This document shows positions 21,217-44,691 of a DNA stretch of 64,000 bases, piece by piece. A program made the translations under genes and the position numbers. Below the pieces are notes generated by a model that ran no database searches, was not told the origin of the DNA, and saw nothing but the letters and a program-made list of their open reading frames with translations. The DNA is taken from NCBI RefSeq assembly GCF_009362845.1, contig NZ_WHNW01000002.1, forward strand, positions 248,001 through 312,000. The letters are read 5' to 3'. Source of the DNA: Ostreibacterium oceani (GTDB lineage: Bacteria > Pseudomonadota > Gammaproteobacteria > Cardiobacteriales > Ostreibacteriaceae). Numbering within the stretch: position 1 is the stretch's first letter; the number at the start of each line of letters is the position of its first letter.

Positions 21217-21697
21217 CGCCAGCACCTATTTCCACGGCAAAAGCTACACGGAAAAAATGATTTTGTTTACCGCGTTTGGCTTTGGTAGCGGGTTGGCTAA
21301 GTTCGCACCTGGGACTTGGGGGACACTTCCTGGGCTTGTACTTGCTTACTTCTTGATGCCGCATCCCTGGTTGCATTTGCTCACCATAGTCGCACTCACA
21401 GCGCTGGGTATTTGGTTATGCCAACGCGCATCCGACCTATTAAAAACACATGACCACAGTAGTATCGTCATCGATGAAATTGTCGGTGTTTGCATCACCC
21501 TGCTCTTTTTGCCCGCATCGCCTTGGGCTTTGCTTTTAGGGTTTGTTTTTTTCCGTTTTTTTGACATTGTCAAACCATGGCCTATCCGCTGGGTTGACCG
21601 CCGTGTACACGGCGGACTGGGCATTATGCTAGACGACATCATTGCTGGCGTGTTTGCCGCTGTTCCATTGCAGCTTATTTGGTATTACTTTTTTTAA
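21191..21697 (+). CDS. pgpA: Phosphatidylglycerophosphatase A
   Basis: PgpA removes the phosphate from phosphatidylglycerophosphate to make phosphatidylglycerol. The 168-residue membrane protein shows the family blocks FGFGSGLAKFAPGTWGTLPG, SSIVIDEIVGVCITLLFLP, FFRFFDIVKPWPIRWVDR and GGLGIMLDDIIAGVFAA, with the Asp/Glu residues of the metal site. It overlaps gspE by 26 bp and is read as the last gene of the rightward T2SS arm. PgpA is usually found after thiL, so this position is unusual. Coupling to T2SS expression is inference. Confidence 0.93.
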   Translation: MKKNNQPISASTYFHGKSYTEKMILFTAFGFGSGLAKFAPGTWGTLPGLVLAYFLMPHPWLHLLTIVALTALGIWLCQRASDLLKTHDHSSIVIDEIVGVCITLLFLPASPWALLLGFVFFRFFDIVKPWPIRWVDRRVHGGLGIMLDDIIAGVFAAVPLQLIWYYFF

Positions 21698-40539: not shown

Positions 40540-41370
40540 TTAGCGTTCGGCATTAGCGCTCAGCATTAAACCATATTGCGCAATTAATTGCATCACGTTC
40601 TCCGAAGAGATACCGCTGTGCGCTAAAAAGTGGGGATTAATTAACGATTGTCGACGCCCATACTGTAGCGGTTGCGCTGTTTTAAAGTCAAGCACTTCAC
40701 CGCCGACCGCCTCCAGTATACAATGCCCCGCTGCGCTGTCCCATTCACTGGTATCCCACATTTTGGGATAAATCGCGGCACGCCCTGTCACCAAATCGAT
40801 AAATTTCAGTGCGCTACCACGGCGATAGCAATCATAATCACCAAGGACACTCAACAACTGCCGCATCTTATCACTGGGGTTATCCGCGCTAATCGCGACC
40901 CGAAACGGCGCAGTGGGCGCGCTCTGTTTCAGCGAAACCACGCCAGCTTGATCACATTGCAAAACACCGCGTGAGCTATCGGCAAGCCAAGCACGCTGCG
41001 CTACTGGCGAATAAATCAAACCAAACACAGGGCGATGGTGATAAATCAGCGCAATACAAATACAAAAATCATCGGTTTGATTAATGAATCCTTTGGTCCC
41101 GTCTATCGGGTCTATCAGCCAATAAACAGGCCAGTCTAGCCATGCATTACTTGCGGGTAAATTTTCTTCGCTGAGCACAGGATAATTGGCAATTTCAGCC
41201 AACCCTGCCTCGAGACACTGACTAGATTCCATGTCGGCAATCGTGACGGGGGAGCCGTCGCTTTTATGCGTAATATTAAGCGAAGACTGGTAGTAACGCA
41301 TGACACATTGCGCTGCTTTTCCCACCAACCCCAGCGTTTGCTCAACCTGCTTGTCATTCAAAATAATCAT
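40540..41370 (-). CDS. cysQ: 3'(2'),5'-bisphosphate nucleotidase CysQ
   Basis: CysQ hydrolyses 3'-phosphoadenosine 5'-phosphate and belongs to the inositol monophosphatase fold. Seen here are SDGSPVTIADMESSQCLEAG, PVLSEENLP, the metal site WLIDPIDGTKGFINQTDDF and WDTSEWDSAAGHCILEAVGG. With the ATG at 41370 the length is 276 residues and the start aligns with the family; a GTG at 41397 is also in frame. A TATAAT (on the minus strand) ends 6 bp before that ATG, which leaves almost no room for a leader. A CysQ-type role is likely, though related phosphatases act on inositol phosphates. Confidence 0.9.
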   Translation of the reverse strand: MIILNDKQVEQTLGLVGKAAQCVMRYYQSSLNITHKSDGSPVTIADMESSQCLEAGLAEIANYPVLSEENLPASNAWLDWPVYWLIDPIDGTKGFINQTDDFCICIALIYHHRPVFGLIYSPVAQRAWLADSSRGVLQCDQAGVVSLKQSAPTAPFRVAISADNPSDKMRQLLSVLGDYDCYRRGSALKFIDLVTGRAAIYPKMWDTSEWDSAAGHCILEAVGGEVLDFKTAQPLQYGRRQSLINPHFLAHSGISSENVMQLIAQYGLMLSANAER

Positions 41371-41626
41371 ACCACTATTATAGCGAAATCTCGGCACTGA
41401 TTGTCAGAATAACTGGCCTTTTCCTCGGTTTTTTAACACGGTACTTTGGGTTGTGCTTTGGGTTGCGTTTTGAGCTGAATTTTTAATCTAATTTTGAATC
41501 CAATTTCTAGCCAATTTTGCAACCTGCCTTGTTGTTTTTGTGATCTTGTTCCTATCATTTATTTAACTTTAACTTATCGTAATTACAGTATATACTGTAA
41601 TTACGATAATCTTAGTAGGAAAAGCC
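41371..41626. other. Divergent cysQ / gbsR-like intergenic region
   Basis: The 256 bp hold a near-consensus -10 element for cysQ on the minus strand and the palindromic operator of the plus-strand regulator gene. Between them lies sequence with short repeats such as TTTGGGTTGTGCTTTGGGTT (around 41445) and further TTTTGAATC/AATTTT units. No gene is seen. Confidence 0.6.
41574..41609 (+). promoter_or_regulatory. Perfect 36-bp palindrome: likely operator of the GbsR-type regulator and cydAB
   Basis: Left arm TTATCGTAATTACAGTAT and its exact reverse complement follow each other with no spacer. The site ends 17 bp before the regulator ATG at 41627. A possible promoter overlaps it: TTTAAC (41568-41573), 17 bp, TATACT (41591-41596). 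Binding of a dimeric winged-helix protein here would block that promoter, so autoregulation of the whole gbsR-cydA-cydB unit is the simplest reading. The nested core TTACAGTATATACTGTAA could be the basic recognition unit. Confidence 0.8.
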
Positions 41627-42223
41627 ATGAATTTACCACCGCTCATACAAAATTTTGTCATTCATTTCGGTGAAATGGGTTCACGCTGGGGCATCAATCG
41701 CACTGTCGGACAAATTTACGCCCTGCTGTATCTATCGGATCAGCCAATGCACGCTGATGAAATTGTCGAGCAGCTGGGGTTTTCTCGCTCTAATGTCGCT
41801 ATGAGCTTAAAAGAGCTCATGGGCATGAATCTTGTTTTACGCCAACATCTACCTGAAGACCGCAAAGACTACTACGCCACGCATGATGATGTTTGGGATA
41901 TTGTCCGTAATTTACTGGAAGAGCGCCGCAAACGAGAAATTGATCCTACATTGACCATGCTTCGTTCTGTGATTATGGAAACGCCCGCCAGCGAAACCGA
42001 AAAACAGGCACAAGAAAAAATGAAAGCCATGCACGATATGATCGAAATGCTGACAGATTGGCATGCAGAAATGCAAAAAATGGAAACAGAAAAACTCATT
42101 AATCTGTTAAAAATGGGCGCTAAAATCTATCAGGTTTACCTCCTCAAAGACAAAGTAAACCCTTTTGCTAAAAAGAAAGATAAAGCGGTCATCGAAACAC
42201 CCCCTAACAACCCATCGGAGTAA
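41627..42223 (+). CDS. GbsR/MarR-family transcriptional regulator
   Basis: The 198-residue product has the GbsR-type winged helix: GSRWGINRTVGQIYALLYLS, HADEIVEQLGFSRSNVAMSL (recognition helix) and LKELMGMNLVLRQHLPEDRK (wing). A long helical C-terminal part (residues about 95-175) should form the dimer interface. AGTAGGA lies 8 bp before the ATG. The gene ends 3 bp before cydA, so it should control cytochrome bd expression from the palindrome just upstream. The signal sensed is not visible; no Cys cluster, heme motif or other sensor domain was found. Confidence 0.9.
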   Translation: MNLPPLIQNFVIHFGEMGSRWGINRTVGQIYALLYLSDQPMHADEIVEQLGFSRSNVAMSLKELMGMNLVLRQHLPEDRKDYYATHDDVWDIVRNLLEERRKREIDPTLTMLRSVIMETPASETEKQAQEKMKAMHDMIEMLTDWHAEMQKMETEKLINLLKMGAKIYQVYLLKDKVNPFAKKKDKAVIETPPNNPSE

Positions 42224-42226
42224 ACC

Positions 42227-43618
42227 ATGGAATTTGATGCCTTCATGCTATCGCGTATTCAGTTTGCCGCCAACATCACGTTTCATATTATGTTTCCATC
42301 CGTCACGATTGCGATGGGATGGATTTTACTTTTTTTCAAATTACGCTTTAACAAAACGGGCGACGAAGCATGGATGCACGCGTATTTTTTCTTTACTAAA
42401 GTTTTTGCCCTTAGCTTTGCCATTGGCGTTGTCAGCGGCATTACCATGTCATTCCAATTTGGCACGAATTGGCCAGGTTTTATGGAAGTTGTCGGCAATA
42501 TCGCAGGCCCGCTCCTTGCCTACGAAGTGCTGACCGCTTTCTTTTTAGAAGCCACTTTTTTAGGCATTATGCTCTTTGGCTTTCGCCGTGTGCCAGGCTG
42601 GCTACACACCACCGCCACGTCGCTGGTCGCGATTGGTACAACCGCATCCGCTTTTTGGATTATCGTGCTCAATAGCTGGATGCATACACCGACTGGATTT
42701 GAAATGATTGCCAACGATACTGGTCTAATGCAAGCCCACGTCACAAACTGGTGGGAAGTCATTTTTAACCCATCAATGCCTTATCGATTTATTCATATGC
42801 TACTGGCCTCTGGACTCACTGCATGCTTTTTGATTGCAGGGCTGTCTGCGTATCGCTTGCTTCGAGCCGACCCCTCGCCAGCCGTATTAAAGGCACTAAA
42901 AACCGCATTATACAGTGCTGCGGTGCTCATTGTTATGCAAATTATTGCAGGACATGAGCACGGCCTCAACACCAAACAATACCAGCCCGCTAAACTCGCC
43001 GCCATGGAGGCCGTCTGGGAAACAGAGCGCAGTGTACCGTTTGTGCTATTCGCCATCCCTAACGAAGCCGAGCGCCGCAATGATTTTGCCATTGAAATCC
43101 CCTATGCTGCCAGCCTCGTTGTTACCAGCTCTCTTGATGGCGAAATCAAAGGACTGAACGAATTTGATGTGCATCCACCTGTTGCGCCTGTATTTTTTGG
43201 ATTTCGAATTATGGTGGGTATTGGCATGCTAATGTTGCTCGTTTCTTGGATAGGAAGCTATCACTTAACACGCAACAAACCCCTTAAAAAATGGTTTTTA
43301 TATATCTTGGTCGGCATGACATTTGCAGGCACCATTGCAACCATCGCCGGCTGGTATGTGACTGAAATTGGTCGCCAGCCTTGGTTAGTCGAGGGGGTAT
43401 TAACGACTGCAGATGCACTGGGACCAATCTCTGGCGGTATGGTATTTTCAACCCTGATGATGTACTTAGGTGTTTATGCGTTTTTGACGGTTGCTTATAT
43501 CGCCACGTTATTTTATCTGGCGAAAAAAGCCGGCGACGGATCCAGACGAGACCCTGAAAAACTGGTTGCCGAAGGTGGTGAACGCCATGCATACAGTGCA
43601 AGCGCCACCACTGACTGA
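42227..43618 (+). CDS. cydA: Cytochrome bd-type quinol oxidase subunit I, short Q-loop
   Basis: CydA carries hemes b558, b595 and d and oxidises quinol while reducing oxygen to water. The 463-residue product shows the heme ligand region NITFHIMFPSVTIAMGW near residue 20, RFIHMLLASGLTACFLIAGL near 187, the Q-loop GHEHGLNTKQYQPAKLAAME, and the GRQPW motif (YVTEIGRQPWLVEGVL) near 380. The loop after PAKLAAME is short, as in the cyanide-insensitive oxidase (CioA) group, and unlike the 522-residue E. coli CydA. It follows the regulator by 3 bp and is followed by cydB after 49 bp. Confidence 0.95.
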   Translation: MEFDAFMLSRIQFAANITFHIMFPSVTIAMGWILLFFKLRFNKTGDEAWMHAYFFFTKVFALSFAIGVVSGITMSFQFGTNWPGFMEVVGNIAGPLLAYEVLTAFFLEATFLGIMLFGFRRVPGWLHTTATSLVAIGTTASAFWIIVLNSWMHTPTGFEMIANDTGLMQAHVTNWWEVIFNPSMPYRFIHMLLASGLTACFLIAGLSAYRLLRADPSPAVLKALKTALYSAAVLIVMQIIAGHEHGLNTKQYQPAKLAAMEAVWETERSVPFVLFAIPNEAERRNDFAIEIPYAASLVVTSSLDGEIKGLNEFDVHPPVAPVFFGFRIMVGIGMLMLLVSWIGSYHLTRNKPLKKWFLYILVGMTFAGTIATIAGWYVTEIGRQPWLVEGVLTTADALGPISGGMVFSTLMMYLGVYAFLTVAYIATLFYLAKKAGDGSRRDPEKLVAEGGERHAYSASATTD

Positions 43619-43667: not shown

Positions 43668-44681
43668 ATGATTCAACAAGCATTGACCGATGGCACGTGG
43701 CTACCCTACACCTTTGCTTTTTTGATGGGTTTGTCTATGCTAATTTATGCCGTCTTAGACGGATACGACTTAGGCGTGGGCATGTTAATCGATCGCGCGA
43801 CAGACGACGAAAAAGACACGATGATTGCCTCAATTGGGCCGTTTTGGGATGCTAATGAAACTTGGCTCATTCTCGGCGTGGGGCTGCTGCTTGTTGCCTT
43901 TCCTATGGCGCACGGCGTTATTTTAACCGCGCTATACTTGCCCGTTGCCATCATGTTATTTGGTCTTATTTTTCGTGGCGTATCGTTTGACTTTCGCGCC
44001 AAAGTACCAAAACATAAAAAAAATCGCTGGAATAAAAAATTCTTTTACGGATCACTACTCACCGCACTGGCACAAGGGTTTATGTTGGGGTTTTATATCA
44101 TCGGATTTGATACCAGCTTGGCAGGTTTATTGTTTTCGGTGTTAATTGCTGTTGCACTGGCCTCTGCGTATTGTTTAATTGGCGCTTGCTGGCTTATCAT
44201 GAAATGCGAAAAACAACTTCAAGTCAAGGCGGTGCGCTGGGCAACTATCCACACGATTGGGTGCGCGGTCGGTTTGGCTGCCGTTTCTGTCACAACGCCA
44301 CTAATGAGTGAGCGTATTTTTAACAAATGGTTTGCATTCCCAGAGCTACTTTGGCTGGCGCCCATTCCTGTCCTGACAATCGGGTTGTTACTGAGCCTGT
44401 TTTTACTACTCAAAAAACTCCCCATGCAAAACGACCGTTATTGCTGGCTGCCATTTGTGATGACGATTGTCATTTTCATATTGGGTTTTTTGGGGTTGGC
44501 GTATAGTTTTTTCCCGTATCTAGTGCCTGAAAAAATGACCATTTTACAGGCCGCCGCCGCACCCGCTTCGTTAAAAATTATGCTCGTTGGCGCGTTGATT
44601 GTCTTGCCGATTTTAATCGCCTATACGTTTCTTGCCTATCGAATCTTCCATGGCAAAGCGACGGAATTGCATTATGATTAA
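43668..44681 (+). CDS. cydB: Cytochrome bd-type quinol oxidase subunit II
   Basis: The 337-residue partner of CydA has nine or so membrane segments and the family start YTFAFLMGLSMLIYAVLDGY followed by DLGVGMLI. PFWDANETWLILGVGLLLVA and LYLPVAIMLFGLIFRGVSFD with FRAK are also typical. AAGAGGA lies 6 bp before the ATG. No small cydX gene follows: the next gene starts from the other strand 10 bp after the stop codon. This also fits the CIO-type complex. Confidence 0.95.
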   Translation: MIQQALTDGTWLPYTFAFLMGLSMLIYAVLDGYDLGVGMLIDRATDDEKDTMIASIGPFWDANETWLILGVGLLLVAFPMAHGVILTALYLPVAIMLFGLIFRGVSFDFRAKVPKHKKNRWNKKFFYGSLLTALAQGFMLGFYIIGFDTSLAGLLFSVLIAVALASAYCLIGACWLIMKCEKQLQVKAVRWATIHTIGCAVGLAAVSVTTPLMSERIFNKWFAFPELLWLAPIPVLTIGLLLSLFLLLKKLPMQNDRYCWLPFVMTIVIFILGFLGLAYSFFPYLVPEKMTILQAAAAPASLKIMLVGALIVLPILIAYTFLAYRIFHGKATELHYD

Positions 44682-44691
44682 CTAACGAGAT

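Follow-up and report, generated by a model that had tools for sequence, protein, structure and literature searches.

A 36-bp perfect palindrome as the predicted operator of an autoregulated cydE-cydA-cydB operon in Ostreibacterium oceani

The perfect 36-bp palindrome upstream of a GbsR-type regulator gene in Ostreibacterium oceani is very probably (we put the probability at about 0.9) the operator of an autoregulated cydE-cydA-cydB operon. Circuits of this kind are known from two other bacteria; in O. oceani the site is unusually long and perfectly symmetric, and its core has diverged. Control of cydAB by the regulator through the palindrome, as proposed in the first-pass annotation, is a prediction from sequence that gene order, fold family, a conserved core and a match to a published footprint support well. 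The following features lie within the 64,000-nucleotide stretch of DNA analyzed here (the window):

40540-41397, minus strand: inositol monophosphatase-family gene, on the other side of the palindrome and reading away from it
41569..41596, plus strand: candidate sigma-70 promoter TTAACT-16-TATACT, a weak match to consensus only, with its -10 element inside the core operator
41574..41609, no strand assigned: perfect palindrome, 36 bp, composed of four consecutive 9-bp half-sites, TTATCGTAA, TTACAGTAT, ATACTGTAA and TTACGATAA
41582..41610, plus strand: alternative candidate promoter ATTACA-17-GATAAT, weak, overlapping the palindrome
41583..41600, no strand assigned: core operator TTACAGTATATACTGTAA, 18 bp, corresponding to the TTTCAGTAATTWCTGAAA conserved at CydE-type genes and to footprinted site 1 of CydE
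41627..42223, plus strand: GbsR-type MarR regulator, CydE/CioR orthologue, 198 aa, with the recognition helix at about residues 54-66 and the wing at 70-85
42227..43618, plus strand: cydA, cytochrome bd subunit I, 463 aa (PF01654, E=2.4e-156; GRQPW motif in the translation)
43668..44681, plus strand: cydB, cytochrome bd subunit II, 337 aa (PF02322, E=5e-83)

The two arms of the palindrome (41574-41591, TTATCGTAATTACAGTAT, and 41592-41609, ATACTGTAATTACGATAA) are 18 nt each, 100% complementary and separated by a spacer of 0 nt. An earlier placement at 41568-41609 was right about the end and about the 17 bases between 41609 and the regulator ATG at 41627, but set the start 6 bases too early. The accompanying claim that 18-base arms with zero mismatches are far beyond chance was confirmed by an inverted-repeat search and by Markov windows: across 40 such windows with the dinucleotide make-up of the original, the longest arm measured 7-11 nt, and arms of at least 18 nt are expected ∼9e-7 times per window and ∼3e-5 times per genome. 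The runner-up among perfect gapless palindromes in the whole window, CCGCCGTGTACACGGCGG at 21598-21615, has 9-nt arms, which is roughly what chance alone would give. No second copy of the palindrome was found in the window with up to three mismatches allowed, and a genome-wide search for the 18-bp core at up to three mismatches returned a single further match, at three mismatches. A mobile or repeated element is ruled out by the single-copy status of the palindrome in the genome. Elsewhere in this genome (G000), TTACAGTATTCTCTCAAA is found at three places, with a near copy at a fourth (C1:146609, C3:90, C4:24854, and C4:96519), a recurrence that suggests a dispersed repeat.

The regulator gene lies directly upstream of cydA and cydB on the same (plus) strand, with a gap of 3 bases between its stop and the cydA start. 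A small cydX-like gene is absent after cydB (44682-44691), where the neighbouring gene lies on the other strand. The regulator matches PF12802 above cut-off; of all solved structures, MJ223 (1ku9) is the one that its family profile hits best (E=8.5e-24). A search with the predicted fold of the regulator (mean pLDDT 81.8) again retrieves 1ku9 first (E=6.5e-09). These matches place the regulator among the GbsR-type proteins, which join a MarR winged helix-turn-helix to dimerisation helices like those of MJ223, and with MJ223/1KU9 leading both searches the earlier GbsR-type assignment is upheld. MJ223 was also the template used for GbsR (PMC6207618).

The published point of reference is CydE of Alishewanella sp. 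WH16-1, reported in 2018 as a GbsR-type repressor of cydEAB with footprints on TATTTCAGAAATTTCTGAAAGTTCA and GGGATGCGCATATGCAAAT, the first of which (site 1) contains TTTCAGAAATTTCTGAAA (PMC6096048). We drew relatives of the window regulator from 57 related genomes, 369 genomes of the class and a genome contig collection; none of the genomes compared belongs to the same genus or family. A first set comprised 14 cydA-linked loci other than the window, each with cydA shortly after the regulator gene; 14/14 carry TTTCAGTAATTWCTGAAA or a sequence close to it, 26-56 bases before the regulator start. With the window counted in, the best match to the CydE core in the upstream 150 bp has a mean of 16.0/18 over 15 cydA-linked loci; shuffles give 10.2 and coding DNA gives 9.3. 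The window has the most diverged core in this set, and the agreement of that core with the CydE footprint core (12/18, p 0.21) is by itself within chance. Its link to the CydE-type operator comes instead from a position weight matrix built from the 14 other sites, with the window left out, because this matrix ranks 41583-41600 first among all positions on both strands of the window (15.8 bits; next 11.8). Training loci score 23-32 bits, against 15.8 for the window core, and the CydE footprint sequence (PMC6096048) scores 29.3. An operator of the CydE site-1 type is therefore found upstream of the regulator gene, with a diverged core; the second CydE footprint, GGGATGCGCATATGCAAAT, shows no resemblance to the operator motif.

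A second set of 25 regulator loci from the phylum was scored with the unchanged first-set matrix. Upstream regions beat all 100 shuffles at 23 of the 25 loci, and at 19/19 where cydA lies downstream; two loci (L066 and L076) had no site beating shuffles with this matrix. The earlier expectation that the site is conserved upstream of orthologous genes was thus borne out by a site of the same design at 14/14 first-set and 23/25 second-set loci. What is conserved is the 18-bp core, whereas the perfect 36 bp occurs only in this genome among the loci examined. A genome scan for palindrome-like sites, suggested in the first-pass annotation, yielded no clear further ones: TTNCAG-N6-CTGNAA occurs at exactly one place, and allowing one mismatch gave 97 forward matches versus 77 for the reversed control pattern, with no clear enrichment.

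Sites of this family go with GbsR-type regulator genes at many loci, also where cydA was not detected, and lie at -22 to -111 relative to the regulator starts; relatives without detected cydA mostly carry the sister design TTTCTG-N6-CAGAAA. Four of these CTG-N6-CAG-class relatives (L034, L037, L039, and L007) have the same site type before the regulator; in the first three, the regulator is followed by a DCC-type thiol-disulfide-like protein and then an epimerase-like protein (both named by eye), which may represent another, uncharacterised set of targets for GbsR-type regulators. At another locus without detected cydA, from another family of the same order, three head-to-tail TTTCTGTAA half-sites with a 9-bp period lie upstream of the GbsR-type gene (L004:1433-1459).

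These distributions also bear on the possibility that a different regulator, such as one responding to oxygen or redox state, is the main protein on the palindrome and that the GbsR-type protein acts at other sites. Escherichia coli cydAB is under ArcA and Fnr control, and the core in the window departs from the consensus of the family, both of which would fit such an arrangement, as would the additional activation of cioRAB by CviR (PMC11837568). Against it, the CydE footprint shares the site design, and the site family accompanies GbsR-type genes at many loci, whether or not cydA was detected there. This association of motif and regulator gene makes control by another regulator less likely, and we regard it as very improbable.

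Outside the core, the family retains further conserved bases at a 9-bp period, forming partly conserved outer half-sites (TTY at -7 to -5; T, C, G, A, and A at +20, +22, and +24 to +26). The window takes this layout to four half-sites in perfect mirror symmetry, a state seen only here among the loci examined: the outer nine pairs are symmetric at 9/9 positions, compared with 0-7/9 at other cydA-linked loci, and where the core differs from its consensus, the change in one arm has its mirror image in the other. Both features would also be expected if an ordinary CydE operator core had acquired its 36-bp symmetry through quasipalindrome correction by template switching, a mutational mechanism, with no consequence for function. 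Selection on four half-sites is equally possible, since the family partly keeps the outer ones, and a symmetric dimer would likewise select mirrored change; we consider the mutational account unlikely, though it deserves some weight. The perfect symmetry may be functional or a mutational product.

Differences in the regulator may parallel those in the site. In the predicted regulator fold the recognition helix spans residues 54-66. Regulators with Met59 mostly have CAG-N6-CTG sites, and those with Thr59 or Asn59 mostly CTG-N6-CAG; the CAG-N6-CTG site is absent at two Met59 proteins without detected cydA (L026 and L038). Residue 58 is Ala in the window regulator and Ser in all other tabulated helices of the family, and half-site position 3 is A in both window arms (TTACAG) and a nearly fixed T elsewhere (TTTCAG). 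The co-occurrence of Ala58 and TTACAG is one case and would amount to a hypothesis only. That regulator and operator shifted specificity together, the four half-sites becoming a symmetric 36-bp platform for two cooperating dimers, is a speculative and rather doubtful extension. Ser58/TTTCAG and Ala58/TTACAG offer a natural pair for probing how GbsR-type proteins read DNA.

Two promoter-like matches lie near the gene start, and each overlaps the palindrome. The first-pass annotation had described the overlapped promoter as the only plausible one; the overlap applies to both matches, but their being the only ones is not established, with 0.9 such matches expected by chance. A terminator is ruled out, as no T-run follows the stem, and the sole terminator-like match lies elsewhere (41403-41417).

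The element could in principle act in RNA, as a 5' UTR hairpin of 16 pairs that alters how stable the cydE mRNA is or how well it is translated, and the transcript is predicted to fold stably (-20.3 kcal/mol, z -5.8). Folding is, however, a property of any perfect palindrome, and pairing and covariation at 12 orthologous sites are no better than with shuffled partners (covariation 109/500, cells paired 197/500). Fixed sequence accounts for the five invariant pairs, the outer pairs are mostly broken elsewhere, and the window contains no Rfam match. Because the two candidate promoters overlap the palindrome, it may not even be transcribed whole. Action as an RNA hairpin is thus extremely unlikely.

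Under the operator reading, dimers of the GbsR-type regulator would bind 9-bp half-sites of the form TTnCWGnAA through the winged helix. The central pair of half-sites makes up the conserved 18-bp core, and the flanking pair lengthens it to 36 bp, enough space for another dimer or for binding in alternative registers. The bound protein would cover the promoter/start region and block transcription of the regulator gene and cydAB. A signal acting on the regulator would release it from the operator, after which cytochrome bd and repressor would rise together in a feedback loop. Binding by the window regulator, repression and two-dimer occupancy are inferred here.

These results would extend CydE/CioR-type control of cytochrome bd to another lineage. 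The open literature searched yielded no consensus operator for this branch of GbsR proteins; the one given here for the CydE/CioR branch, TTTCAGTAATTWCTGAAA with its 9-bp half-sites, is conserved beyond the class, within the phylum, and repressor regulons should therefore be predictable from sequence.

Control of cytochrome bd by a GbsR-type protein, for which the first-pass annotation could name no characterised case, has in fact been described for CydE (PMC6096048) and for CioR (PMC11837568), and a survey lists 34 gbsR-type genes adjoining cyd operons (PMC6207618). As in cydEAB, the window has its GbsR-type gene directly upstream of cydA and cydB, and its predicted operator likewise sits in the regulator's own putative promoter, with CAG-N6-CTG inside an 18-bp palindrome. 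Unlike CydE site 1 with its core TTTCAGAAATTTCTGAAA, the window core TTACAGTATATACTGTAA lies within a 36-bp perfect palindrome; CydE in turn has a second, dissimilar footprint, and its repression and response to sulfate, its reported signal (PMC6096048), are demonstrated, whereas the window system is known from its sequence. CioR of Chromobacterium violaceum, reported in 2025 as a GbsR-type repressor of cioRAB on the basis of reporter assays, RT-qPCR and EMSA, also lies ahead of cytochrome bd genes and is an autorepressor that binds its own promoter in EMSA; its binding is disrupted in vitro by iron and zinc, and the accessible text defines no exact binding site that we could find (PMC11837568). 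GbsR, OpcR and OpuAR of Bacillus belong to the same MarR subfamily, with an MJ223-like fold, and control genes for glycine betaine synthesis or osmoprotectant uptake, GbsR and OpuAR responding to choline or glycine betaine (PMC6207618). The window protein differs from this group and is rejected as a choline-type regulator of the CudC kind, scoring 56.7 bits on the CudC NCBIfam equivalog profile, for which the cut-off is 218.
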